Virus record (IMG/VR): IMGVR_UViG_3300013133_000071
Coordinates: 1-23,173 of that record
DNA from: a virus
Strand: one strand, 5' to 3'
DNA: 23,173 nt
The translations under genes were made by a program, and so were the position numbers. The notes below the pieces were generated by a model. The model saw only the letters and a list, made by a program, of their open reading frames with translations. It had not been told where the DNA came from and ran no database searches. Of the stretch, positions 9,452 to 22,029 are shown piece after piece; the first letter of the stretch is position 1; every line of letters starts with the position of its first letter.

Positions 9452-10066
9452 ATGGTCTGGAATTCGCTATGGCCAGATGGGACTAAGTCTGTAAAGCAAA
9501 ACACGACCCCAGGTCAACAAAACACTGCCTATACCGAAACGACCATGAATAACGATCACTTTTGGAATATAGGCGCTGATGAAGACGGCCATCATAGAGC
9601 TGTCAACATGATGAACTATGCGGATACAGCTACAGGAGCGCCTGCAGATGCTCCCATTGCCACTGGCTTTGATGGGGTCTATTACATCAAGCAGGTCAAT
9701 GGACGCAATGCAGGCTTCTACCGCAATTCGGATGGGATCTTTCAGGCTGTTCCTGGCTTTATCAGCGGCTCAGCTAACATCACTGGATCCTATCAGAATA
9801 TCGTAGCTCTCCCAGATGGCTGCTACGGAAATGTGTGGTTTTTTAAAAACGACAGCTCAAACGCAATGGCTTTCGGCTCGTTTAAGTGTGCCGGTAGTAT
9901 TTGCCAAGCCTATTGCTTGCCTATTTATCCTGGAAACACTGCTACGCTCCAATTTCCTATGAGATTTGGAAGTGCAGATCAAGTAAGTGGCCTTAATCTA
10001 AGAGTGCGCACCTCCGATGGTCCTACAGGAGTGTATCAATACCGAATCCAATTTTGGGCGATTTAA
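9452..10066 (+). CDS. Putative virion/tail structural protein
   Basis: A 204-aa protein. The N-terminus VWNSLWPDGTKSVKQNTTPG and the following NNDHFWNIGADEDGHH segment are of a type I recall in phage tail or head-fibre proteins that start with a WN..WPDG..SV..N stretch. The rest is Gly/Ser/Asn/aromatic-rich and beta-structured, ending in GPTGVYQYRIQFWAI, consistent with a compact beta-sandwich tip. It has no membrane segment. Position before the large tail protein supports a tail-associated, perhaps receptor-facing or stabilising, role. Confidence 0.6.
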   Translation: MVWNSLWPDGTKSVKQNTTPGQQNTAYTETTMNNDHFWNIGADEDGHHRAVNMMNYADTATGAPADAPIATGFDGVYYIKQVNGRNAGFYRNSDGIFQAVPGFISGSANITGSYQNIVALPDGCYGNVWFFKNDSSNAMAFGSFKCAGSICQAYCLPIYPGNTATLQFPMRFGSADQVSGLNLRVRTSDGPTGVYQYRIQFWAI

Positions 10067-11970
10067 TGGAAATCTATGAGATCACAGGATTTAGGTCAGG
10101 GTTAGACAGAAGTGGCGTTAACTTCTTAGACCCTGCTGACTCTTTTGAAACTCTCAAGAATGCCTACATCTATAGACAGGTTCTCCAATCGCGCCTAGGC
10201 TTTTCACAATTTGCCAATCGTCTCTCAGATGGCACCAGAGTGATGGGTCTTTTTGAAAATATCCTCCCGACAGGAGACAGAGAACTTTTAGCCATCAGCA
10301 AAGAATTCCTGTATAGATACAACACCACAACGAATGAATTTGATCAGATTCCATTCAATGCTCGGATTTTAGCTCTAGATCCAACCTTCAATTTTGGAAT
10401 TGCCGCTAACGATCAGTACGTGTCGGGCACGACCTATTTAACAAAAGATGGCTCTCAAAGGTTCATTTTTACTGGCAGCGGCATGACGGTTGCCCCACAG
10501 ACGGGTGGACAAGATAATTCGGCTGTCTTTTTTTATGATGGGACATCGGTGGGGGACTTCTTCTGTGCCTTGGATAATCCAGATGTAGAAGAGCCAGCTG
10601 CATCGATTGGAGATGTGGTTCGAGCGGTAGCAGTGATCTATTTTGGAGAGCGCCTTAACTTCTTTGTTCCAACCACAACGGTCACGACATACAATCAGGG
10701 CGTTTTGTTCTCTGGGATCAAGGACGCTGGGGGGAATGGGGATAAATTCAACGTTCCAGGATCGGGGCTAATTCAATTCGACACCTCTGACGTACTTAAG
10801 ATGGCCATCATTTTAGGAGATGTAATCGTCGCAAGATTCCAGAGATCGGATTGGACTTTAGAAAAGACAAGAGACGCTTTCAACCCCTACTTCCCAAGAA
10901 AAATACCCTCTGTTTTAGGTACCGATGCAGCTTTTTCCGTTGTCCAATGGAATTACGAAGTAAAATCCCTGGGAAAGCCAGGCGCTATCACCACGGATGG
11001 GCGAGAGTCTGTTAGGTTCGATAATAAAGTGCCTTTATTCACCTCTGATGATATCGATCAGTCCCTATTTGACCTATGCTATGGGGGTTTTGATCGGATA
11101 AATGGACAGTTTCTGTTCTCTTTTAGATCCAATCTTTCTAATTTGACGCCTCTCACACAAGATCAGGTCTTAGTCTACAACTATGAAGAGAGCACATGGT
11201 CAGTTTTTGATCAGCGCTTCTCTGTATTTGGTCAAACCATACAAGGGCAAGATCTCACTTGGGATGAGATCGACGAGACTCAAAATCCTGCATGGGCGCG
11301 GATGGATGAGACTGAGGAAGTATGGAATAGGATAGGCATCGAGGCTGTAACTCAAAAGACATTAGCTGGAGATGACCTCGGCTTTGTCTATCAGATCAAT
11401 CAGGATTATGACGACTATTTCGTGGATGTCACAAACATCACTCAGGCTTCCGCTGCGGTTGTAACTGTAGAGCCGTCGGCTTTTCAGATCGGCGATCGTG
11501 TAGTGTTCGTGAATGTTGGCGGCATGGATGAAATCAACAGCATGAAAGGAACTGTGACGGCTGCGTCTCTTGCAAGCATCACTGTAGATATTGATTCACG
11601 TAATTTCACTGCATATACGACAGGTGGAACCGTATCCAAGCTGATTAATTTTGAGGCTCAGACTATCCCTTTTAATCCATGGAGAAATCAAGGCCGAATG
11701 ATCAACATGTCCCATGTAGAGTTTTTAGTAGATTCGAATGCTGGGGATATGTTCGTCGATTTTTACATCGATGAAGAGTCATCTCCATTTAAAACAGCTT
11801 ACGTTGCATCGCCGAGCACAACGACTAAGAAAAAGGTTTGGGTAGCTGTTGAAGTAAACCAAGAAGCAAATTTTATAACGATTGTAATGAGAAATGAAAG
11901 CGCTGGTTTCCAGACGCTGATCACCTCGATTCGCATACACTGCGAGCCAGGTCTTCTCACCAATCCATGA
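10066..11970 (+). CDS. Large tail protein, P22 gp10-like stabilisation/hub candidate
   Basis: A 634-aa protein. I take ATG 10066, which overlaps the previous TAA (TAATG), over an in-frame TTG at 10054. The sequence is beta-rich with repeated aromatic-turn strands (for example VLVYNYEESTWSVFDQRF and AVVQ-type blades), as in beta-propeller packaged-DNA-stabilisation or tail-hub proteins of podoviruses (P22 gp10 is similar in place; its size is smaller). Residues about 455-530 (VDVTNITQASAAVVTVE through TTGGTVSKL) resemble an FCCH-like insert. It lies downstream of the adaptor candidate and upstream of the ejection genes, matching tail-nozzle order. Confidence 0.65.
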   Translation: MEIYEITGFRSGLDRSGVNFLDPADSFETLKNAYIYRQVLQSRLGFSQFANRLSDGTRVMGLFENILPTGDRELLAISKEFLYRYNTTTNEFDQIPFNARILALDPTFNFGIAANDQYVSGTTYLTKDGSQRFIFTGSGMTVAPQTGGQDNSAVFFYDGTSVGDFFCALDNPDVEEPAASIGDVVRAVAVIYFGERLNFFVPTTTVTTYNQGVLFSGIKDAGGNGDKFNVPGSGLIQFDTSDVLKMAIILGDVIVARFQRSDWTLEKTRDAFNPYFPRKIPSVLGTDAAFSVVQWNYEVKSLGKPGAITTDGRESVRFDNKVPLFTSDDIDQSLFDLCYGGFDRINGQFLFSFRSNLSNLTPLTQDQVLVYNYEESTWSVFDQRFSVFGQTIQGQDLTWDEIDETQNPAWARMDETEEVWNRIGIEAVTQKTLAGDDLGFVYQINQDYDDYFVDVTNITQASAAVVTVEPSAFQIGDRVVFVNVGGMDEINSMKGTVTAASLASITVDIDSRNFTAYTTGGTVSKLINFEAQTIPFNPWRNQGRMINMSHVEFLVDSNAGDMFVDFYIDEESSPFKTAYVASPSTTTKKKVWVAVEVNQEANFITIVMRNESAGFQTLITSIRIHCEPGLLTNP

Positions 11971-13723: not shown

Positions 13724-15792
13724 GTTCAACAACAGACTTCTCGCAATACAGAAGAGGGCAACAGGAGTCATCTGAGCAGAATAATGACTCGCTTGGTCAA
13801 TTCGCTCAGTTTAAACGAGCCCCTAAGCGAGGAGCCTATGAGACATTCGTTGAACGTCCAGGTCAAATTGTAGGTCAATCCGCAGTGGCAGGGCTTAAGG
13901 CTCTTCCCAGAACAGCATACGATCTGTTAAAAACAGTGGTTGAAAAAACTGGCGGCGATCTTTCTAAGCTTCAAGAAGCTGAAAAAAATGCCCCTGAATG
14001 GTTAAAAGACTTTGCAAAAGATCACCTACGAACCTACGAAGAAATCAGAGAAGAACAAGCTCGTACAGGCAAGCAATACGGCTCTGATAAATCTCTCGCA
14101 CAGCCTGAAGGCGCCACTGAAAGAGCGCTCGAGAAATTCGGTAGATTCCTGGGAGAGTCCCCAGCCCTTGGCGGAGTCGGAGGTGCAAGAGGGGTTGCGT
14201 CGCTTGCGGGGCTTGCAGGCGGCATGCAGGTTGGCGAAGAGAGTAAGTTGGGACCGCTTGGACAGTTTATTACGGGAGGAATTGGAGCACTCACACCTGG
14301 CGGTATACGAGGGTTGGGAAGGGCTATTGCAAGCCCCAGACAAACTGTGGCTAAAGGCGTGGCTAAACTCACTCCCTCTAAATCTATTGATATCCAAAAG
14401 CAGCTTATTCGAGATGCGCGAGATGCAGGCGTCCAGCTTGATGTTGGATCCCTTTCAGATAGTCGTCTTGTTAAGTTCGTGCAAAACCAACTCGCTCAAT
14501 CTGCATTGGCAGGGGAATCACTGGAGAATTTCAAAAAACAACTCTCCAAGCAAATCATTGATGAATACAAGGGTGTTGCTGATTCCATAGGACAATCGCG
14601 ATTTCAAACTCATTATCAAGCAGGCGAAGCTGTTCAAAATGCGATCCGCCAACACAAAGACACCACATTAAGCCAAGCCAGGGATCTCTATAATTCAGCT
14701 CGCAAACGTGGAGGAAATTTCCAAGTCTTCACAGGCAAGGTCGGAGATGTAGTCAAGGAGCTTGAAGAGTCTTTGACACCTGGCTCTATAAAATCTGGCG
14801 AGCAAAAAGCTGTATTGGAGGCACTCAACAAGCTTAAATCGGATGTTTTGACCCCTGCAGGCGATATCAAGTCCGCAAGTATCAATGATCTGATCAATGA
14901 CAAGATCGCACTCAATGACATTATCGATTATGAAGTACAAGGGGGGGCCAAACAGCTCCTCAAAAAAGCTGTAAAAGCACTCGATGAAACCATTTCTGCG
15001 CATGGCAAGGTAGACCCTACTTTCGCGAAAGAATGGAACATGGCTAATAAGCGTTTCAGCGAGCATGCAAAGACCTTTAGAAATCAAAATATTTCTAATG
15101 TACTGAAAACGCAAGATCCAGCAACGATTTTGAATAAAATGAATTCGGCTGCTGGAATTCGGGACGTGAAAAATGCTCTTTCGTCGAGTAAAGAAGGGCG
15201 CGATCTTTTTAATGATCTCAAGCGATACAAGATCGACGATCTATTAGAAAAGTCTCTGGAGCAAAACGTAAAGGATCAGATTCAGTTCGGAAAGGTAGGG
15301 AATGCCCTTAAAAAAGGAAAGAATGAGGATCTTTTAAGAGAATTGATGCCTAAGCAGGATTTCGAGCGGTTGCAGAGATTGGCTAAGCTTTCTGGAAACA
15401 TCGCAGAATCGGCGAATAAATTCTTAAACACAAGTCAATCTGGAACTACCATTATAAACATGGCAGCGGTTGCGGATATCCTTCATTCTTTTTCACAAGC
15501 TTTTGTTGGTAATTTTGCACCTGCAGCAGTGAGCATTGGCGGCTTAGCCGGAGTTCGTGGTCTTTCCAAATTAATCACAAATCCAAAATTCCTAACTGCA
15601 GTAGAAGACGCTATCCTAGCTTCTAAATCCAATAACTTAAACTTAATGGAGCGTGCCGGAGCCGAGCTGCTAAACCTAACAGGACAGGGAGCAAAAACAG
15701 CGGCTAGAGGCGTAGGGAACGCGACGGAGAACGAGTTCGTTTCGCAGCGACGGCAGTCTGGCGATCAGCTTCCTTTAAACGCCTCTCAATAG
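13720..15792 (+). CDS. Large internal virion / DNA-ejection protein
   Basis: A 690-aa protein, ATG 13720 with GGAGG upstream and an ATGA overlap. The first 130 residues are charged and contain VERPGQIVGQSAVAGLKALP. Residues about 145-215 are Gly/Ala-rich (GVGGARGVASLAGLAGGMQ and FITGGIGALTPGGIRGLG), suggesting a membrane-interacting hairpin. The long remainder (about 220-620) is helical with Lys, Gln and Ala. Size and place match P22 gp16-type ejection proteins, which cross the envelope ahead of the genome; no lytic transglycosylase motif is evident. Its 3' end overlaps the opposite-strand membrane-protein gene by 89 bases. Confidence 0.65.
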   Translation: MSSTTDFSQYRRGQQESSEQNNDSLGQFAQFKRAPKRGAYETFVERPGQIVGQSAVAGLKALPRTAYDLLKTVVEKTGGDLSKLQEAEKNAPEWLKDFAKDHLRTYEEIREEQARTGKQYGSDKSLAQPEGATERALEKFGRFLGESPALGGVGGARGVASLAGLAGGMQVGEESKLGPLGQFITGGIGALTPGGIRGLGRAIASPRQTVAKGVAKLTPSKSIDIQKQLIRDARDAGVQLDVGSLSDSRLVKFVQNQLAQSALAGESLENFKKQLSKQIIDEYKGVADSIGQSRFQTHYQAGEAVQNAIRQHKDTTLSQARDLYNSARKRGGNFQVFTGKVGDVVKELEESLTPGSIKSGEQKAVLEALNKLKSDVLTPAGDIKSASINDLINDKIALNDIIDYEVQGGAKQLLKKAVKALDETISAHGKVDPTFAKEWNMANKRFSEHAKTFRNQNISNVLKTQDPATILNKMNSAAGIRDVKNALSSSKEGRDLFNDLKRYKIDDLLEKSLEQNVKDQIQFGKVGNALKKGKNEDLLRELMPKQDFERLQRLAKLSGNIAESANKFLNTSQSGTTIINMAAVADILHSFSQAFVGNFAPAAVSIGGLAGVRGLSKLITNPKFLTAVEDAILASKSNNLNLMERAGAELLNLTGQGAKTAARGVGNATENEFVSQRRQSGDQLPLNASQ

Positions 15793-15973
15793 CTTCTTCC
15801 TCTTCCTTAACGAACTGGTGGTAGCTATAAATGCCGCCAATAAAACCACCTATGGCAGCCATCCAACCTAACCCATAGCCGTACAAGCAAAATGCAAAGA
15901 ATCCTGCGCTCAATAATCCAACAAAAAGACATGCTAGTCCGTGTCTAATCGCCTCATCTATTTTTTGTGCCAT
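15704..15973 (-). CDS. Small two-helix membrane protein (holin-like)
   Basis: An 89-aa protein. Residues about 12-31 (GLACLFVGLLSAGFFAFCLY) and 33-54 are hydrophobic, so two membrane helices are likely. A highly charged coiled-coil tail (VKEEEEAIERRLKEADRQ) and basic end follow. This layout resembles class II holins or small phage membrane effectors, but no lysozyme or spanin gene is nearby, so holin is only one option; a superinfection-exclusion protein is another. AGAGGA precedes the ATG. It has its own sigma70-like promoter and overlaps the end of the ejection gene in the opposite direction. Confidence 0.6.
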   Translation of the reverse strand: MAQKIDEAIRHGLACLFVGLLSAGFFAFCLYGYGLGWMAAIGGFIGGIYSYHQFVKEEEEAIERRLKEADRQTAVAAKRTRSPSRSLRL

Positions 15974-15995
15974 AATTCCTCTCTAAAACACCCCT

Positions 15996-16024
15996 ATTAT
16001 GCAACACATGTAGACTAAAGGCAA
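15996..16024 (-). promoter_or_regulatory. Sigma70-like promoter for the membrane-protein gene
   Basis: Read on the minus strand: -35 TTGCCT (16024-16019), a spacer of exactly 17 bp, then -10 CATAAT (16001-15996), five of six matches to TATAAT. Transcription would start around 15989, giving a leader of roughly 16 bases that contains the ribosome-binding site AGAGGA. The same arrangement, TTGCTT-17 bp-CATAAT, occurs before the ribbon-helix-helix gene at the head of this cassette. Confidence 0.55.
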
Positions 16025-16039
16025 TCCGAAGACTTTATT

Positions 16040-16453
16040 TTAATCTCGGGCGTAGTCGATATCGATATGGGTCGTCCATTTGCCGTTTTTAGTGGCTTTT
16101 ATCGGATTTATATGAAGGAATCGAACCCCAGAACTCCCGTATTCATTGGCCTTTTTGATACATTCTACCAGTCCATTAATCCAATCTTTTCGCTTGCGTA
16201 TTCCTCTAGGAATGTCCCTGAATGTAAAGGAATTCTTTCCATAATGTCCACGGATACGCCTATGCTTAGGGATTACTTCAGTCGGCTTGGCCACAGGAAG
16301 AGGAGAGTCCTGCATATTAATGAGGACGTTCAACACTCCATGAATGAGGTTCGTATTTACGATCACTTGGCGCTCATTGATGGTTTGAAAGGTCTTTTCC
16401 AGATCTGCTATATGGTTAATCAAAGCATCCCAGTCTTCATCGGGTATGTACAT
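16040..16453 (-). CDS. Hypothetical protein of minus-strand cassette
   Basis: A 137-aa soluble protein. The N-terminus (about residues 5-45) is helical: EDWDALINHIADLEKTFQTI. A basic linker (KHRRIRGHYGKNSFTFRD, then GIRKRKDW) leads to a helix (WINGLVECIKKANEYG) and a C-terminal beta segment ending in HIDIDYARD. I recognise no domain. Its ATG overlaps the preceding stop (TAATG at 16453), with GAGGA upstream. The basic centre suggests contact with nucleic acid, but that is a guess. Confidence 0.65.
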   Translation of the reverse strand: MYIPDEDWDALINHIADLEKTFQTINERQVIVNTNLIHGVLNVLINMQDSPLPVAKPTEVIPKHRRIRGHYGKNSFTFRDIPRGIRKRKDWINGLVECIKKANEYGSSGVRFLHINPIKATKNGKWTTHIDIDYARD

Positions 16454-16680
16454 TATTTGTCCTCGATCGCGTCTCTGATTTCTTGAAGTTTCATAGAGAT
16501 GATGGCGGTGTTAAAATCAGTCGCCATGACTTTAGCGAGTTCAATTGCATCCGAAACTTTATATGGCATCTCATGCTTGTCCAGGATATCGATAGCCGAT
16601 CCTAGATAATCATCGGCTGTCATTCTAGCCTGTGAAAATGCGTTCTCAATGGTGATAAGAACCTCTCTACTCACGACCAA
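16453..16680 (-). CDS. Small acidic helical hypothetical protein
   Basis: A 75-aa, all-helical, acidic protein containing REVLITIENAFSQARMTADD and a second helix around VSDAIELAKVMATDFN, ending EIRDAIEDK. It has no cysteines or membrane segment. It overlaps the recombinase gene by ten bases and the next gene by one, so all three should be co-translated. No family is recognised. A partner or modulator of a neighbour is possible from the tight coupling. Confidence 0.6.
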   Translation of the reverse strand: MVVSREVLITIENAFSQARMTADDYLGSAIDILDKHEMPYKVSDAIELAKVMATDFNTAIISMKLQEIRDAIEDK

Positions 16681-17381
16681 CTCCTCTTTATAGGATGCGC
16701 GGTTTTAATGCCGTGCGCTCTCAAGGCGCGCCAGACACTATCATGCGTCCAGAGTTTATTTTTTCTATTTAGAAGACCCAATTTATTCATTTCCTGGGCT
16801 ATATCAGCCATGAAAACACCTTTCGATCGAAGTTCTTTCATCTTTTCGAGATGCGGAATGCAAGCAGGATTAATGACGAGTTTTTTATCCGGTCCAACCA
16901 TAAAGCCGAACCTCAAAGAACCAGCTCTTTCTCCTCTGGCTTTCTTTGCTGCTAGAGCGGACTTGATGCGAACGCGCGTAATGTCTCTTTCAAAAGCCGC
17001 TACCACGCGGAACATGTCCCTCATCATTTTCGCACCAGGATCAGCGCTATCCGTGCCTTCACCTGCGGCTGAAACAATCCTAGATTTTTTATCTCTAATC
17101 ATCTCTTCAATAAGCAGTGCCCCATAAAGATCTCGAGACAAGCGATCCAATCTAGACACAAGCAAGACTGAATCTGGTTCCAAGGAGCAAATAGCATTAA
17201 AAAGAGCAGGGCGTTTATCTAGTGGAGCGGCTCCGCTAATGGCTTTTTCTACAAATGAGTGATGAATCTCAAAACCATTTTTTTGAGCCCATTGCTTGCA
17301 GATATCCTCTTGAGCAGATAGTCCCGCGCCGCTTTCAATTTGCATTTCGGTAGAAACTCGATAATAGGCGATTACTTTCAT
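16671..17381 (-). CDS. Small serine recombinase (resolvase/invertase family)
   Basis: A 236-aa site-specific DNA recombinase. The catalytic fold is clear: MKVIAYYRVST places R8 and the nucleophile S10, and SRLDRLSRD gives D79, R80 and R83. A segment at about residues 95-140 (GTDSADPGAKMMRDMFRVVAAFERD, then an E-helix-like RIKSALAAKKARG) completes the resolvase domain. The C-terminal part (about 145-236) ends in a helix-turn-helix-like region (MADIAQEMNKLGLLNRKNK, then THDSVWRALRAHGI). It is too short to be a large serine integrase. It might move or invert the cassette or switch tail-fibre genes, but I saw no long inverted repeats flanking a gene. It starts with an ATGA overlap. Confidence 0.9.
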   Translation of the reverse strand: MKVIAYYRVSTEMQIESGAGLSAQEDICKQWAQKNGFEIHHSFVEKAISGAAPLDKRPALFNAICSLEPDSVLLVSRLDRLSRDLYGALLIEEMIRDKKSRIVSAAGEGTDSADPGAKMMRDMFRVVAAFERDITRVRIKSALAAKKARGERAGSLRFGFMVGPDKKLVINPACIPHLEKMKELRSKGVFMADIAQEMNKLGLLNRKNKLWTHDSVWRALRAHGIKTAHPIKRSWS

Positions 17382-17707
17382 TTAGGAGCAACTCCAACAA
17401 ACACATAATCATTCGCTAAGAAATCTTCAGGGGTGAGGTCTGGTCGCTCGCAAAAAATCATACCCCCGTGCATTTCAAAGTAGACATGAGAATCCCATCC
17501 TTTACGCTGGAAGCGGTCGCCTTCGGTAATGGTCTGCATGACTTGGATAAAGGACAATGGTGAAGAGTAAAGTTCCCATTCAGTGGAGAAGTCGGCCTCA
17601 TATTCTGATCCTTCAATATCACCAGGCAAAAGAGGATTATTCAAATCAATTCGTCTTACTGCATAGCCATCTTCCAAGGCTTTCATCGCTTCGCTAAACC
17701 GCATCAT
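17378..17707 (-). CDS. Tandem DUF2829/Tad2-like protein
   Basis: A 109-aa protein with two consecutive copies of a short module. Copy 1 (residues about 3-49) has FSEAMKALEDGYAVRR and ends TEWELYSSP. Copy 2 (about 52-105) has FIQVMQTITEGDRFQRKGW and ends FLANDYVFVG. This matches the DUF2829 pattern F.eAl.al.eG..v.R..W ... DLlA.DWe. DUF2829 includes Tad2, a phage anti-Thoeris protein that sequesters the signal nucleotide. An anti-defence role is therefore possible, though many DUF2829 proteins are untested and copy 1 lacks the usual Trp. The second Met (17704) overlaps the upstream stop and may be the true start. Confidence 0.65.
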   Translation of the reverse strand: MMRFSEAMKALEDGYAVRRIDLNNPLLPGDIEGSEYEADFSTEWELYSSPLSFIQVMQTITEGDRFQRKGWDSHVYFEMHGGMIFCERPDLTPEDFLANDYVFVGVAPK

Positions 17708-18195
17708 TCTCCCTTTAGAATCTCAAGTTTTACTGGGTTACCATCCTTATCTTTCATGACGGCATCATGAAGAGCATGAGAGCCTCTGCACTGCTTTCTT
17801 TCGATCATCCTTTGCTCTTGTCGAGATCTCACTCGTCCATCCTTATCTTGAAACTTGCAATGCATCATGAGATGAGATTCTTTGCCAAACTCCCGACAAA
17901 CAAAAGGTCTGTCTTCATAGATATTGCACTTCCAGTCTTTGGTTAGAAATGGACAGCGTTGATTCGTACCGCCTGGATCAGGCTCTCCGATTGGCAATAC
18001 CATTTCACCTTCCTTGACTGATTTCGGATTCTTAAATGAATCTTCTGTGAGAATCGGCCCTTCAAAATGAAACTCTTCAACCATGGCGCGCGCAAGTTTA
18101 TCGCGGTTCCTTTCTAGGATTTCTCTAGGCATAGGAGTAGGCGCGCAGCAGCATGCTTTGCACTTTGGCTTCATCTTATCGCAATCAAATCCCAT
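17704..18195 (-). CDS. YkgJ-type cysteine-cluster protein
   Basis: A 163-aa protein with the YkgJ/CxxCxxCC pattern: clustered C12, C15, C16, C17, then C81 (QRCPFLTKDWKC), C90 and C100 (IYEDRPFVCREFG), with C113 and another Cys further on. This family is thought to bind zinc or an iron-sulfur centre; its reaction is not firmly known. It is encoded in many phages and bacteria. The gene overlaps the following DUF2829-like gene by four bases and starts overlapping the previous stop (TAATG at 18195). The metal site is well supported; the substrate is unknown. Confidence 0.8.
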   Translation of the reverse strand: MGFDCDKMKPKCKACCCAPTPMPREILERNRDKLARAMVEEFHFEGPILTEDSFKNPKSVKEGEMVLPIGEPDPGGTNQRCPFLTKDWKCNIYEDRPFVCREFGKESHLMMHCKFQDKDGRVRSRQEQRMIERKQCRGSHALHDAVMKDKDGNPVKLEILKGE

Positions 18196-18413
18196 TATTC
18201 TGTGATCTCAAATGGGTAATGTTCGTGTATGCGTCGCAGGAATCCGTTAGCAGCTGATTCAGTTCGATATTTCTTCAAGAGATATTCCCTCTCTTGGCTT
18301 GCTGCTATGATGTGAAATCTTTCTTGGTAATCCTGTCCTTTGTCTAGGATGAAGATGTATTCCATCCTTTCCATATTGACTAGGTCGTTCTCTATGTCCC
18401 TTATGAATCTCAT
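18195..18413 (-). CDS. Small hypothetical protein
   Basis: A 72-aa protein with a good Shine-Dalgarno (GAGGAG) about eight bases before ATG 18413. It is charged, with a probable strand-helix build: MEYIFILDKGQDYQERFHII, then SQEREYLLKKYRTESAANGF. It contains no Cys. I recognise no family. The stop overlaps the next gene's ATG. A different frame reading through the same DNA (18259-18516) is open but less convincing. The 92-base gap upstream (18414-18505) holds no clear gene. Confidence 0.6.
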   Translation of the reverse strand: MRFIRDIENDLVNMERMEYIFILDKGQDYQERFHIIAASQEREYLLKKYRTESAANGFLRRIHEHYPFEITE

Positions 18414-18505
18414 TGCCGTTCTCCTCTTGCCATTGTTCTAGTTGAGAGCGCATATCATCATTTCGACAGCGTTCCCTTGTTTTTTCGCTATATGCCTTTG
18501 AATTT

Positions 18506-18862
18506 TCAAGTCCCATCGGGTGCCTCATCAGTAGCTAATCGCCATTTCAGTTCGTGGTTTGGGTGCATTTCGAGCATAGACGGGTTGCACCATGCGTCTA
18601 CATCGACTAGATTGAATTGTTTGCCGTCCCAAGCTGCTTTTGATGTAATGGTGTGTTTCATTTCTACAAGCTGACCAGGCAAAGGAAAACGGTCTTTTGC
18701 ATCGACCCAGCTACATTCTTCACATGGCATTTCACTGTCTGGTACATAGTTCTTTCTCCACCCACGTTCGCATATAGTTTTTTTGCAAATTTCACATGAG
18801 ACAAGTCCGCAAAGATAAGGTCTTTTTTTTGATGGGTCGTATTGCTCTTCTCTCATAGACAT
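18506..18862 (-). CDS. Cys-rich, DUF551-like phage protein
   Basis: A 118-aa protein in two parts. Residues 18-50 hold C18, C23, C26, C31, C47 and C50 (CEICKKTIC, then PCEECSW), likely a zinc-binding knuckle. Residues about 52-115 read WVDAKDRFPLPGQLVEM, a WDGKQF turn, and finally LKWRLATDEAP, the pattern of the small phage domain DUF551 (W...dRlP..g..V ... W...P). ATG 18856 gives an ATGA overlap with the previous gene and better spacing to AAGGA, so the protein may start there instead of 18862. The function is unknown. Confidence 0.65.
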   Translation of the reverse strand: MSMREEQYDPSKKRPYLCGLVSCEICKKTICERGWRKNYVPDSEMPCEECSWVDAKDRFPLPGQLVEMKHTITSKAAWDGKQFNLVDVDAWCNPSMLEMHPNHELKWRLATDEAPDGT

Positions 18863-19107
18863 TCATCCTTTATCCAAACTGTATAATCGCTTCGTCCAGG
18901 CTCCATTAAGCAGGAAGTGATACTAAAAATGCAGTCATGCGGGTGAAGATTAGGTCTTTGCGTTAGAACCTTTAATCTTTGAAAAGTATGGTGCAAAGTA
19001 ATGAATAATTCTCTTTCATTTTTTGGATCTTGCATTCTGCATACCACAAATCTAAAAGGCTCCTCTCCTTTATCAACCGTCAACAATGGCAAGTGGTCAA
19101 TTTCCAT
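18853..19107 (-). CDS. Small hypothetical protein
   Basis: An 84-aa soluble protein, starting 14 bases after the upstream stop with GAGGTG upstream of ATG 19107. It contains a beta-rich N-terminus (MEIDHLPLLTVDKGEEPFRF) and a helix around ERELFITLHHTFQRLKVL. A few Cys residues are present (C23, C59, C65, C83) without a clear CxxC pair. I recognise no domain. Co-transcription with its neighbours on the minus strand is clear from spacing. Confidence 0.6.
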   Translation of the reverse strand: MEIDHLPLLTVDKGEEPFRFVVCRMQDPKNERELFITLHHTFQRLKVLTQRPNLHPHDCIFSITSCLMEPGRSDYTVWIKDECL

Positions 19108-19121
19108 ACAGCTTTACACCT

Positions 19122-19349
19122 CTAATCCTGATTCGGTTCACAAATTTTTTTACTCAATTCTTCCGATCGACTCAAAATCCATCCTGTTTTGGAGTTTCCT
19201 GAAATCTGATCTAGACGTAATCCATCCATCAAACGGATAAGAGAACTAAATTGACTTGTTTTTATCCATCCAGGGGCGCTAAGTACTAGAAGACATTCTG
19301 CTCCGCTCGGAGAAATTTCTAGTTTAGTGATCAAAAGATCTTCACTCAT
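19122..19349 (-). CDS. Hypothetical protein, probably 3' part of a frameshifted gene
   Basis: A 75-aa reading frame from ATG 19349 (MSEDLLITKLEISPSG), preceded by GGAG at fair spacing. Upstream in the same frame the DNA stays open back to the stop of the neighbouring gene and reads coding-like: KKPISIRYEWGEKNKFGLWR then MSED. That points to a longer original protein of about 105 aa (see 19350-19440). The visible part includes PGWIKTSQFSSLIRLMDG and ISGNSKTGWILSRSEELSK. No family is recognised. Whether the short form is made from its own start is uncertain. Confidence 0.6.
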   Translation of the reverse strand: MSEDLLITKLEISPSGAECLLVLSAPGWIKTSQFSSLIRLMDGLRLDQISGNSKTGWILSRSEELSKKICEPNQD

Positions 19350-19440
19350 CTCTCTTCTCCACAAACCAAATTTATTTTTTTCGCCCCATTCATACCGGAT
19401 AGAGATGGGTTTTTTGACATCGGTGCTTTGAATTACTCAT
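19350..19440 (-). other. Likely frameshifted 5' part of the gene at 19122-19349
   Basis: ATG 19440 overlaps the upstream stop (ATGA), as is normal in this cassette, and reads MSNSKHRCQK before meeting a stop. Removing one base from the six-A run on the minus strand (19415-19410) joins this start in frame to KPISIRYEWGEKNKFGLW and the 75-aa frame downstream. Explanations are a sequencing or assembly indel, a true disabling mutation, or slippage during transcription or translation. The joining is seen in the sequence; the cause is unknown. Confidence 0.5.
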
Positions 19441-19640
19441 GATTGCTCCTGACAACACTTCTTACATTTCTTGGCAGGCTGATATCCAATCGGGCTAATC
19501 TTGCCCGTTTCTGGATCAGCCGTATAAATCGCATGAAGGATGATCCGATTGATTTCCTGCTTAGTCTTTCTACAAAAATCGCATGTCTGGGCCGTCGTGA
19601 ACATTTTAAAGAAAGGATCGTTCGATTGAGACTCGCTCAT
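19437..19640 (-). CDS. Small zinc-ribbon-like protein
   Basis: A 67-aa protein with two cysteine knuckles: C20-x2-C23 (CDFC) and C59-x2-C62-C63 (CKKCC), separated by a beta segment (INRIILHAIYTADPETG). This is the spacing of a treble-clef or zinc-ribbon fold that could bind nucleic acid or protein. GAGG lies upstream of ATG 19640. It overlaps both neighbours by four bases. I recognise no specific family; a regulatory partner in the cassette is possible. Confidence 0.65.
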   Translation of the reverse strand: MSESQSNDPFFKMFTTAQTCDFCRKTKQEINRIILHAIYTADPETGKISPIGYQPAKKCKKCCQEQS

Positions 19641-19852
19641 TTAGACGCCTCGCGCCACTCTTGCATGATCTCGCGCATCTTGCAGTTGTATTCGTTCTTC
19701 ACCAGCAAATCCATGATCTCATACAGAACCCGATCCCTCTCAACTTCAGGATAATTTCGCATGTCAGGATAATGGAAAGTTTCAGGAATAAACTTTAATC
19801 GCGTCCGCATAAACACATCAAATTTTTTCCAGATTAAATTAGGTTCATTCAT
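19637..19852 (-). CDS. Small hypothetical protein after RHH regulator
   Basis: A 71-aa protein, rich in aromatic and charged residues (LIWKKFDVFMRTRLKFIPET, then YPDMRNYPEVERDRVLYEIM). The C-terminal half is probably helical. AAAGGAAA lies upstream of ATG 19852, with a four-base overlap with the RHH gene. The pairing with a ribbon-helix-helix gene raises the question of a toxin, but the sequence does not look like ParE, RelE or HicA. No family is recognised. Confidence 0.6.
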   Translation of the reverse strand: MNEPNLIWKKFDVFMRTRLKFIPETFHYPDMRNYPEVERDRVLYEIMDLLVKNEYNCKMREIMQEWREASK

Positions 19853-20037
19853 GATGGATTTCCTTTGAGTCCAGCTTGATTTTTCAACTCTTTGATCTTG
19901 TCTGCGAGAGCTATCCGCATGATAAATGAAACGGGGCGCCCTGTTAAGACAGCCATCATCTTAGCGCTGGAATACAGTTCTGCTGGAAGATAAACAGTGG
20001 TTCGAACGAACCCTTCTCTCTTGGATCTTTTTTCCAT
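19849..20037 (-). CDS. Ribbon-helix-helix transcriptional regulator
   Basis: A 62-aa Arc/CopG-type DNA-binding protein. A basic N-terminus is followed by a strand (residues about 11-17, VRTTVYL), helix A (18-31, PAELYSSAKMMAVL), a turn (TGRP) and helix B (35-50, VSFIMRIALADKIKEL), the classic RHH order. Such proteins bind as dimers to short inverted repeats. The first gene of the minus-strand operon, it sits only three bases from a perfect 12-bp palindrome that overlaps its own -10 box, so autorepression of the whole cassette is likely. No Shine-Dalgarno is visible. Confidence 0.8.
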   Translation of the reverse strand: MEKRSKREGFVRTTVYLPAELYSSAKMMAVLTGRPVSFIMRIALADKIKELKNQAGLKGNPS

Positions 20038-20145: not shown

Positions 20146-22029
20146 ATGCCTAAGTTTGCTCGTCCCAACATGTATAACGGTCGTCAATCGAACCAAGCTT
20201 GGACAGGATCGGTCCGAGCAGCTAATCCCAGCGAAGCAGCCGCTGGCGATAGCGAACAGCTTTACATCAGCCCTGCAACACTCGCTGGAGCGGTACAAGC
20301 TTTAGTCCCTCACGCATCTGATACAGAGTATGGGATTGTTGTTTTGACAGACGATAGCGAGCCAGTGGCAACAAAGGTCTATGTCGATAACATCGCAATT
20401 GCTGGTGCCCCCGATTGGTCTGAAAGCGTCAAGGGGATTGGAGAGCTTTCAACGCAGGCTGAAGCTATAGCTGGAACAAATGATGATACGGCGATGACAC
20501 CACTTAAAGTCGCTCAAGTTTTTGCGGGTGGTACGGTTTCTCCCTCTTTTACAAACGTCCTCATTTCGGGCACTCTCGGTGTCACGGGCCTTACATCTCT
20601 CAACGGCTCGGCTACCGTTGTAACTGGGGCCACGGCTCTTAATTTAGGGGCAGATGCGGGGACAGGAGCGGTAAACATCGGAACTGGCGCAGCGGCGCGA
20701 ACCATTACGATGGGGAATATCTCGGGTGCGACGGCTCTTGCTTTGAACTCGGGAACGGGCGGAATTGCTCTCGTAAGCACCACTTCGGGCGATATCACCA
20801 TAGCGTCAGCAGACACTTGCTTAATCGACTGCGCTGGCGTTTTAGAGCTGAACTCGTCTGCAGGAGTGATCGGCATTGGTAATGATGCCGTCGCTCAAAA
20901 CATCAATATCGGTACAGGTGCAGCTGCTAGAACGATCACCGTGGGAAATGCCTCTGGAGCCACATCGGTGGTTATCAATGCAGGTACTGGCCCCATTGAA
21001 ATTGGAGCGAATGCAATAGCCCATAGCATCACTGTAGGAAATGACGTTGGAGCTACAGCTATCGTCTTAGAAGTAGGAACAGGAAACTTCGTCGTCGATG
21101 GAGTAGGAGCCTCTGAATATGAAATTGGGGCATCTACAACTACTGGAACTATTTTAATCGGCGGAACAGCGCAAACTGGAGCTATCACTCTAGGCAGCTC
21201 AAGCGGCACTAACGCAGTTAATATTGGCGTTGGAGCTGGAGCTACCACGGTTAACATCGCCACTGGAGCTACCAATGCAAAGGCCGTTAACATAGGTACT
21301 GGAGCTGTTGCAAACGTCATCGCAGTAGGATCTTCGTCCGCTGGTGCAATCACTGTAGATACAGCTGCAGGAGTGTCTGTAGATGGCGCGACCGCTTCCA
21401 ACTTCACAGTAACCGGAGCAGGCCAAGACCTAACGCTGGCGTCTGTTGGAGGTTCCGTTAAAATCAACTCCACTGAAAATGCGGCAGGCGCCATCGCTCT
21501 TTCAGCAAACGGAGGCACTTCCGAGACTATCACCATTGCAGCTGCTCAAGGTACTGGTGCCGCCTCGATTGGAATCTCATCTACAGCCGGAGGAGTTACA
21601 ATTTCGGGCGGTCTAGCCACAGCTGATGCGATCAATCTTTCCGCTGCGGCGGGCGGTGTAGATGTTGATGGTGCGCTCCAAATCAACATCGCCTCTTCTC
21701 AAGCCGCTGCGAATGCTATCGCACTGGTAGCTTCCGACGCTGGGGGTGGAATCACTATTGCGGTTGGAACTGGCGGAGTAGGTATTACGGGTGCCGTGGA
21801 TATAAGTCTAGATGCTCGATGCAGAACTATTTTTGCAGACGGCGACGAAGGAACTGGGATTGCTACAACTACAGCCATGACAAATGGAACAGAAACCACA
21901 CAGGGAGCTGGAGAACTAACTATTGTCTCTACAAACGCAAACAATGGAGACAACGCAGGTTTCTTGAAGTTCTATGTGGGTGCTAGCGTTGTATGGGTTC
22001 CTTACTTCACCAACATTGCACCAAGCTAA
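20146..22029 (+). CDS. Tail fibre, repeat-rich beta-structured protein
   Basis: A 627-aa virion protein that probably contacts the host surface. The N-terminal part (residues about 1-125) carries ATLAGAVQALVPHASDTEYG, VVLTDD and GIGELSTQAEAIAGT followed by DDTAMTPLKVAQVF, a linker type common at the head-proximal end of tail fibres. From about 165 to 600 it is a low-complexity Gly/Ala/Thr/Ile/Val repeat region (NIGTGAAARTITxGN-type units) that should form a beta-helix-like shaft. The end reads DNAGFLKFYVGASVVWVPYF, a small C-terminal tip. No chaperone domain is seen. AAGGTG precedes ATG 20146. Confidence 0.8.
   Translation: MPKFARPNMYNGRQSNQAWTGSVRAANPSEAAAGDSEQLYISPATLAGAVQALVPHASDTEYGIVVLTDDSEPVATKVYVDNIAIAGAPDWSESVKGIGELSTQAEAIAGTNDDTAMTPLKVAQVFAGGTVSPSFTNVLISGTLGVTGLTSLNGSATVVTGATALNLGADAGTGAVNIGTGAAARTITMGNISGATALALNSGTGGIALVSTTSGDITIASADTCLIDCAGVLELNSSAGVIGIGNDAVAQNINIGTGAAARTITVGNASGATSVVINAGTGPIEIGANAIAHSITVGNDVGATAIVLEVGTGNFVVDGVGASEYEIGASTTTGTILIGGTAQTGAITLGSSSGTNAVNIGVGAGATTVNIATGATNAKAVNIGTGAVANVIAVGSSSAGAITVDTAAGVSVDGATASNFTVTGAGQDLTLASVGGSVKINSTENAAGAIALSANGGTSETITIAAAQGTGAASIGISSTAGGVTISGGLATADAINLSAAAGGVDVDGALQINIASSQAAANAIALVASDAGGGITIAVGTGGVGITGAVDISLDARCRTIFADGDEGTGIATTTAMTNGTETTQGAGELTIVSTNANNGDNAGFLKFYVGASVVWVPYFTNIAPS
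20671..21330 (+). repeat. In-gene degenerate repeats in tail fibre
   Basis: Imperfect protein repeats are visible: NIGTGAAARTITMGNISGAT (from residue 177) and NIGTGAAARTITVGNASGAT (from residue 254), 77 residues apart, with weaker units such as AHSITVGNDVGATAIVL and AVNIGTGAVANVIAVGSSS between and after. DNA copies have diverged at third positions, so they are old or selected. They probably build repeated turns of a fibre shaft. Confidence 0.7.

Follow-up and report, generated by a model that had tools for sequence, protein, structure and literature searches.

The 109-aa product of a minus-strand gene in the window consists of two shortened Tad2-like modules fused in one chain, and two short PF11195 modules in one such chain were found, in the collections searched, only in this phage and in one relative. 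The window is the whole stretch of viral DNA that was analyzed (23,173 nt; record IMGVR_UViG_3300013133_000071), and the gene is called here the twin-module gene. As judged from its sequence, the protein is to be treated as a relative of Tad2 having a candidate function rather than as a demonstrated Thoeris blocker.

Gene locus and ortholog

The 23-kb window encodes a terminase large subunit as well as a P22-like portal (146.8 bits), and it is probably a partial genome because related contigs reach 34-40 kb. An open reading frame for a 109-aa chain had been placed at 17378-17707 by the sequence-only reading, and this was confirmed, on the minus strand and with an ATG start. The start codon overlaps the upstream CxxCxxCC gene by 4 nt and the stop overlaps the start of the downstream serine recombinase gene by 4 nt (Table 1). 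The minus-strand cassette which holds the gene has the virion genes on one side and a tail fibre-like gene on the other, and it was mostly absent from other relatives when 140 loci of related phages were compared by tblastn.

Table 1. Positions of the twin-module gene, its two modules and the surrounding genes in the window
Feature	Coordinates	Strand	Evidence or remarks
Twin-module gene, 109 aa, two short Tad2-like (PF11195/DUF2829) modules	17378..17707	-	ORF, ATG start, Pfam, ortholog
Module 1 (residues 2-51)	17555..17704	-	Starts MRFSEAMKALEDGYAVRR, ends ADFSTEWELYSSP; very short middle; no Trp after R
Module 2 (residues 52-109)	17381..17554	-	SFIQVMQTITEGDRFQRKGW...LTPEDFLANDYVF; Trp71 kept, terminal DW changed to DY
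Upstream neighbour, CxxCxxCC zinc/iron-chelating domain protein	17704..18195	-	PF03692 35.1 bits
Downstream neighbour, small serine recombinase (236 aa)	16671..17381	-	PF00239 109.8 bits; PHROG 95/125
Cassette of about a dozen small genes, including the twin-module gene	15704..20037	-	ORF list; tblastn, 140 related-phage loci

Eighty viral contigs with a related portal were kept, and 50 of these records were searched whole for orthologs. One of the 50, IMGVR 3300013130_000074, carries an ortholog with the gene order preserved around it; the ortholog's product is 63-66% identical, has a short C-terminal extension and matches PF11195 with 26 bits (cutoff 25). Between this record and the window the portal is 91% and the capsid-position protein 98% identical, which means that the twin-module gene evolves much faster than the portal and capsid-position genes. 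The protein is nevertheless under purifying selection, since pS of the ortholog pair is 0.80, with synonymous sites saturated, while pN is 0.26. The 4-nt overlaps on both sides, the ortholog in the same order and this difference between pS (~0.8) and pN together establish that the gene is real.

The gene was absent from all other members of the phage group that were fetched. Protein-pattern searches of viral contigs and bacterial genomes provided no further relatives beyond the one ortholog, and tblastn gave nothing better than E 0.5 against phages and no match against plasmids. Weak phage matches in Klebsiella LPKP33 and gut MT836694 were rejected as chance-like, the ORF or gene at these places having no matching module. 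Some relatives of the phage carry other single PF11195-like modules elsewhere, one of them fused to an N-terminal extension (L045:3356-3772) and another in the L076 region. The only portal-bearing contigs from bacterial genomes were binned as Parcubacteria and as Bacteroidales, and the host indications disagree.

Family membership of the two halves

Against PF11195 (Tad2-like, formerly DUF2829) the whole protein scores 31 bits (E 3.7e-7; Pfam cutoff 25) in two stretches, and the earlier proposal of two DUF2829-type modules in one chain is thereby borne out. Both halves also match this profile when they are searched separately among 24,736 models, residues 1-50 with 15.5 bits (E 0.027, profile positions 1-22) and residues 51-109 with 19.7 bits (E 0.0013, positions 2-32), each of these single scores being below the cutoff of 25 bits. 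The coverage by the twin-module protein is limited to the first 32 of the 73 profile positions and is thus short of a full-length match. Compared directly with each other, half 1 and half 2 are weakly similar (p = 0.22 by shuffling for the window protein, 0.018 for its ortholog), so the argument for two copies is the match of each half to PF11195.

Ten short modules from other phages, the window protein being excluded, were also used to build a mini-module profile. Among approximately 5,700 ORFs the window protein was its best match beyond the training set (32.0 bits, E 3.3e-8), with a module start placed at residues 2-20, a module end at residues 38-50 and a second module start at residues 52-87; the piece at 38-50, taken alone, is weak and scores 4.3 bits. 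Several sequences of the training set had been reached via a weak match of the window protein itself, and therefore this profile is supporting but not fully independent evidence.

The two copies differ at key positions. The first had been described as lacking the Trp, and this is correct, as the position of W25 in SPO1 Tad2 (the Trp after R) is occupied by Leu22 in copy 1 and by Trp71 in copy 2. In place of the terminal "DW", copy 1 has EW (W44) and copy 2 has DY (Y101); the R-x-G-W and D-x-L-A-x-D motifs are present in module 2. When aligned with the ortholog, half 1 has 35 identical residues out of 49 (~71%) and half 2 has 34 out of 55 (~62%); half 1 is conserved at least as well as half 2 and hence is not a decayed copy. 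PADLOC gave no match for the twin-module protein or four of its neighbours, no defence-linked gene was recognised nearby, and NCBIfam gave no match for the twin-module protein.

Structure prediction

The window protein was modelled by AlphaFold2 with a two-sequence alignment, and the model is of low confidence (pLDDT 62, pTM 0.43), too low for it to reveal a shared pocket. Half 2 is predicted as helix-strand-strand-strand-helix-strand, as expected of a short Tad2-like module, and half 1 is predicted as helix-strand-short helix-strand. The model of the ortholog has the same order of elements without the last strand, at lower confidence (pLDDT 47). When the low-confidence model of the window protein was compared with PDB by Foldseek, the SPO1 Tad2 chains came at the top with E 0.12 and low TM-scores, which is not significant; the best fold matches in BFVD included short proteins that bear the name "Thoeris anti-defense 2-like domain-containing". 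These matches between a predicted fold and Tad2-like proteins are consistent with the family assignment and are no proof of the fold. A sequence search of PDB, done with the protein and with the two-sequence profile, gave no match at E up to 10.

Comparison with Tad2

The window protein shares the Pfam family PF11195 with SPO1 Tad2 (gp34.65; 8sme/8smf/8smg/8wje) and with MoTad2 (8v3e, 9eib), and like Tad2 it has the F-x2-A-L-x3-G-x2-V-x-R start and, in module 2, the D-x-L-A-x-D end motif. Tad2 is a single full-length module of 88-89 aa which forms a homotetramer, whereas the window protein has fused modules of about 50 and 58 aa. All PF11195 positions from 1 to 73 are matched by SPO1 Tad2 (89 aa; NC_011421, 127133-127384; 85.8 bits). 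The spacing from the Trp to the terminal aromatic residue is 60 residues in SPO1 Tad2 (W25-W85), 22 and 30 residues in the window protein (L22-W44 and W71-Y101) and 34 residues in the equivalent part of the short module of gut phage MT835742. Four full-length members have invariant W73, P75 and LAEDW and share the ending W-x-P-x-x-x-D-x-L-A-E-D-W; at this C-terminal motif the window protein reads LTPEDFLANDY and EYEADFSTEW, W-x-P is absent and the greater part of the central segment is gone.

According to a review on sponges, protomers from different Tad2 dimers together form the gcADPR pocket, to which they contribute strand beta4, helix alpha3 and the loops beta1-beta2, beta3-beta4 and beta4-alpha3 (PMC12043709), and cyclic dinucleotides bind the insertion between beta2 and beta5 (PMC12043709). 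Both modules of the window protein thus appear to lack most of the segment which supplies ligand contacts in Tad2. As much of the pocket-forming region is missing from them, the known Tad2 pocket is argued against on sequence grounds, and the protein is probably not a canonical Thoeris gcADPR sponge acting through that pocket.

A true sponge of the Tad2 type, in which the fused modules would form a pocket for gcADPR or another cyclic nucleotide in one chain and block Thoeris, is for these reasons considered very unlikely. It would agree with the common Pfam family, with the place of the Tad2 chains at the top of the (non-significant) fold search and with the R-x-G-W and D-x-L-A-x-D motifs retained in module 2, and since the Tad2 pocket is shared by protomers of separate dimers, two pocket halves might in principle be united by a fusion; but around half or more of the segment from the Trp to the C-terminal motif, W-x-P included, is missing in both modules, module 1 has no R..W Trp and only profile positions 1-32 of 73 are matched. 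The earlier suggestion of a Tad2-like anti-defence factor therefore stands in its family part, as both halves belong to PF11195, and finds no support in its second part, a shared Tad2-type pocket made from one chain, the central segment being mostly lost.

Other PF11195 proteins and short modules

Membership of PF11195 leaves the target unsettled, because Tad2, which acts on Thoeris signals, MoTad2, whose target is His-ADPR (PMC13299392), and AcrIIA7, an anti-CRISPR which carries Pfam DUF2829 and inhibits Cas9 (PMC6739104), are all in the family. The characterised members bind nucleotides (Tad2; PMC12043709) or inhibit Cas9 (AcrIIA7; PMC6739104) and are not described as enzymes. It is conceivable, and in our estimate unlikely, that the window protein is an anti-defence protein with another target, for example one that binds a nuclease or a Cas protein. 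Such a role would follow the case of AcrIIA7 (9kzr), which has the same Pfam domain and is found by SPO1 Tad2 in a search of PDB with E 7e-14, and it would fit the place of the gene in a cassette that is variable and made of small genes which overlap, the most upstream of them encoding a weakly matched, possible ribbon-helix-helix regulator. The closeness to AcrIIA7 is, however, at the family level only: the solved AcrIIA7 chain is 158 aa long and matches Tad2 in a single stretch, and the window protein has no sequence match to AcrIIA7 or to any other PDB entry.

Short modules resembling those of the window protein in length and in their ends (F-x-E-A ... DWEIY-x-E-P) are present in phages C3_41T2LP, MT835742, MIF8 and Semele, and module 1 aligns end to end with the module of gut phage MT835742. 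In Erwinia phage MIF8 they lie in the adjacent genes gp37 and gp38, in Bacteroides phage C3_41T2LP (WLZ21220.1) the module is fused to another domain, and Lactobacillus phage Semele has six PF11195 matches in a paralogous gene array. In these phages a short module thus occurs alone, in a neighbouring gene or joined to an unrelated domain but never twice in a chain. If mini-module genes lying side by side were fused, this would account simply for the twin protein.

Several candidates for an earlier tandem were rejected. The top BFVD matches, from Lactobacillus phages Iacchus and Semele, had the look of tandems, but the Semele proteins that were read are no such precedents, as they have one mini-module and an unrelated domain; the long proteins of Parlo and TJE1 have a single module match each (C-terminal in Parlo); and the matches to PHROG 1048 lie in the C-terminal region of that profile.

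In the array of Semele (MG765279.2, approximately 113015-116093) every paralogous gene begins with a mini PF11195 module, and there are at least six of these genes. The genes read have a common second domain of about 55 aa, and two of them end like ITEENL...L..Y.F. In a Bacteroidales MAG (G052:C181:1026-1708, L094 genome) two neighbouring genes have a full-length PF11195 each, with different N-terminal extensions.

The short modules in the Semele arrays, in the adjacent genes of MIF8 and in the Bacteroides phage fusion are none of them of known function, and the neighbours of the twin-module gene are small uncharacterised proteins and the CxxCxxCC protein. Both observations would suit a small protein for house-keeping or host takeover, with a common beta-alpha fold that binds protein or nucleic acid and has no relation to defence. 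This explanation is regarded as somewhat unlikely, for all the characterised PF11195 proteins found here serve in counter-defence.

Proposed function and significance

The reading which we prefer, and to which about an even chance is given, is that the twin-module gene encodes an accessory protein that evolves fast and consists of two mini-Tad2 modules fused together, and that this protein acts as a non-enzymatic binder of a host molecule and helps the phage. The two modules may pack as an internal pseudo-dimer, in the manner in which Tad2 protomers pack between chains, and this pseudo-dimer would bind a host molecule, which may be a small ligand or else a protein of the host or of a defence system. 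Such binding would help the phage during infection, and the help may consist of counter-defence; a non-defence role is also possible. There is a slim chance of another reading, namely that the protein is a minimal derivative of the Tad2 fold in which the unequal modules would build a single asymmetric pocket, and that this pocket would take up an immune signal or a defence protein unlike those known for Tad2; this would be a new class of phage sponge made from a single chain.

If the protein does counter a defence, this would mean that the Tad2 fold can shrink to about 50 residues and be present twice in a single chain, and that a match to PF11195 need not mean inhibition of Thoeris. The automatic label of Thoeris anti-defence is unjustified for short PF11195 proteins, because most of the pocket-forming region of Tad2 is missing there.

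Observations on neighbouring genes

The best NCBIfam match of the serine recombinase (16671-17381, minus strand) is a DNA invertase, far below the cutoff, and its location near the tail fibre-like gene (20146-22029, plus strand) suggests fibre switching; no clear invertible segment was found around the tail fibre-like gene, where the inverted repeats found were short and imperfect. The CxxCxxCC protein (17704-18195, minus strand) is 83% identical in IMGVR 3300013130_000074 and 60% conserved in L007:3437-3907, a contig with an otherwise different cassette. The most upstream gene of the cassette (19849-20037, minus strand) encodes a possible ribbon-helix-helix regulator of 62 aa (RHH_5 18 bits, below cutoff), which has weak homologs in several relatives. 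A 638-aa protein of the virion region (10054-11970, plus strand) matches the FCCH domain of ubiquitin-activating enzyme E1 with 32.2 bits (cutoff 29.5), and this match is probably a beta-barrel look-alike.
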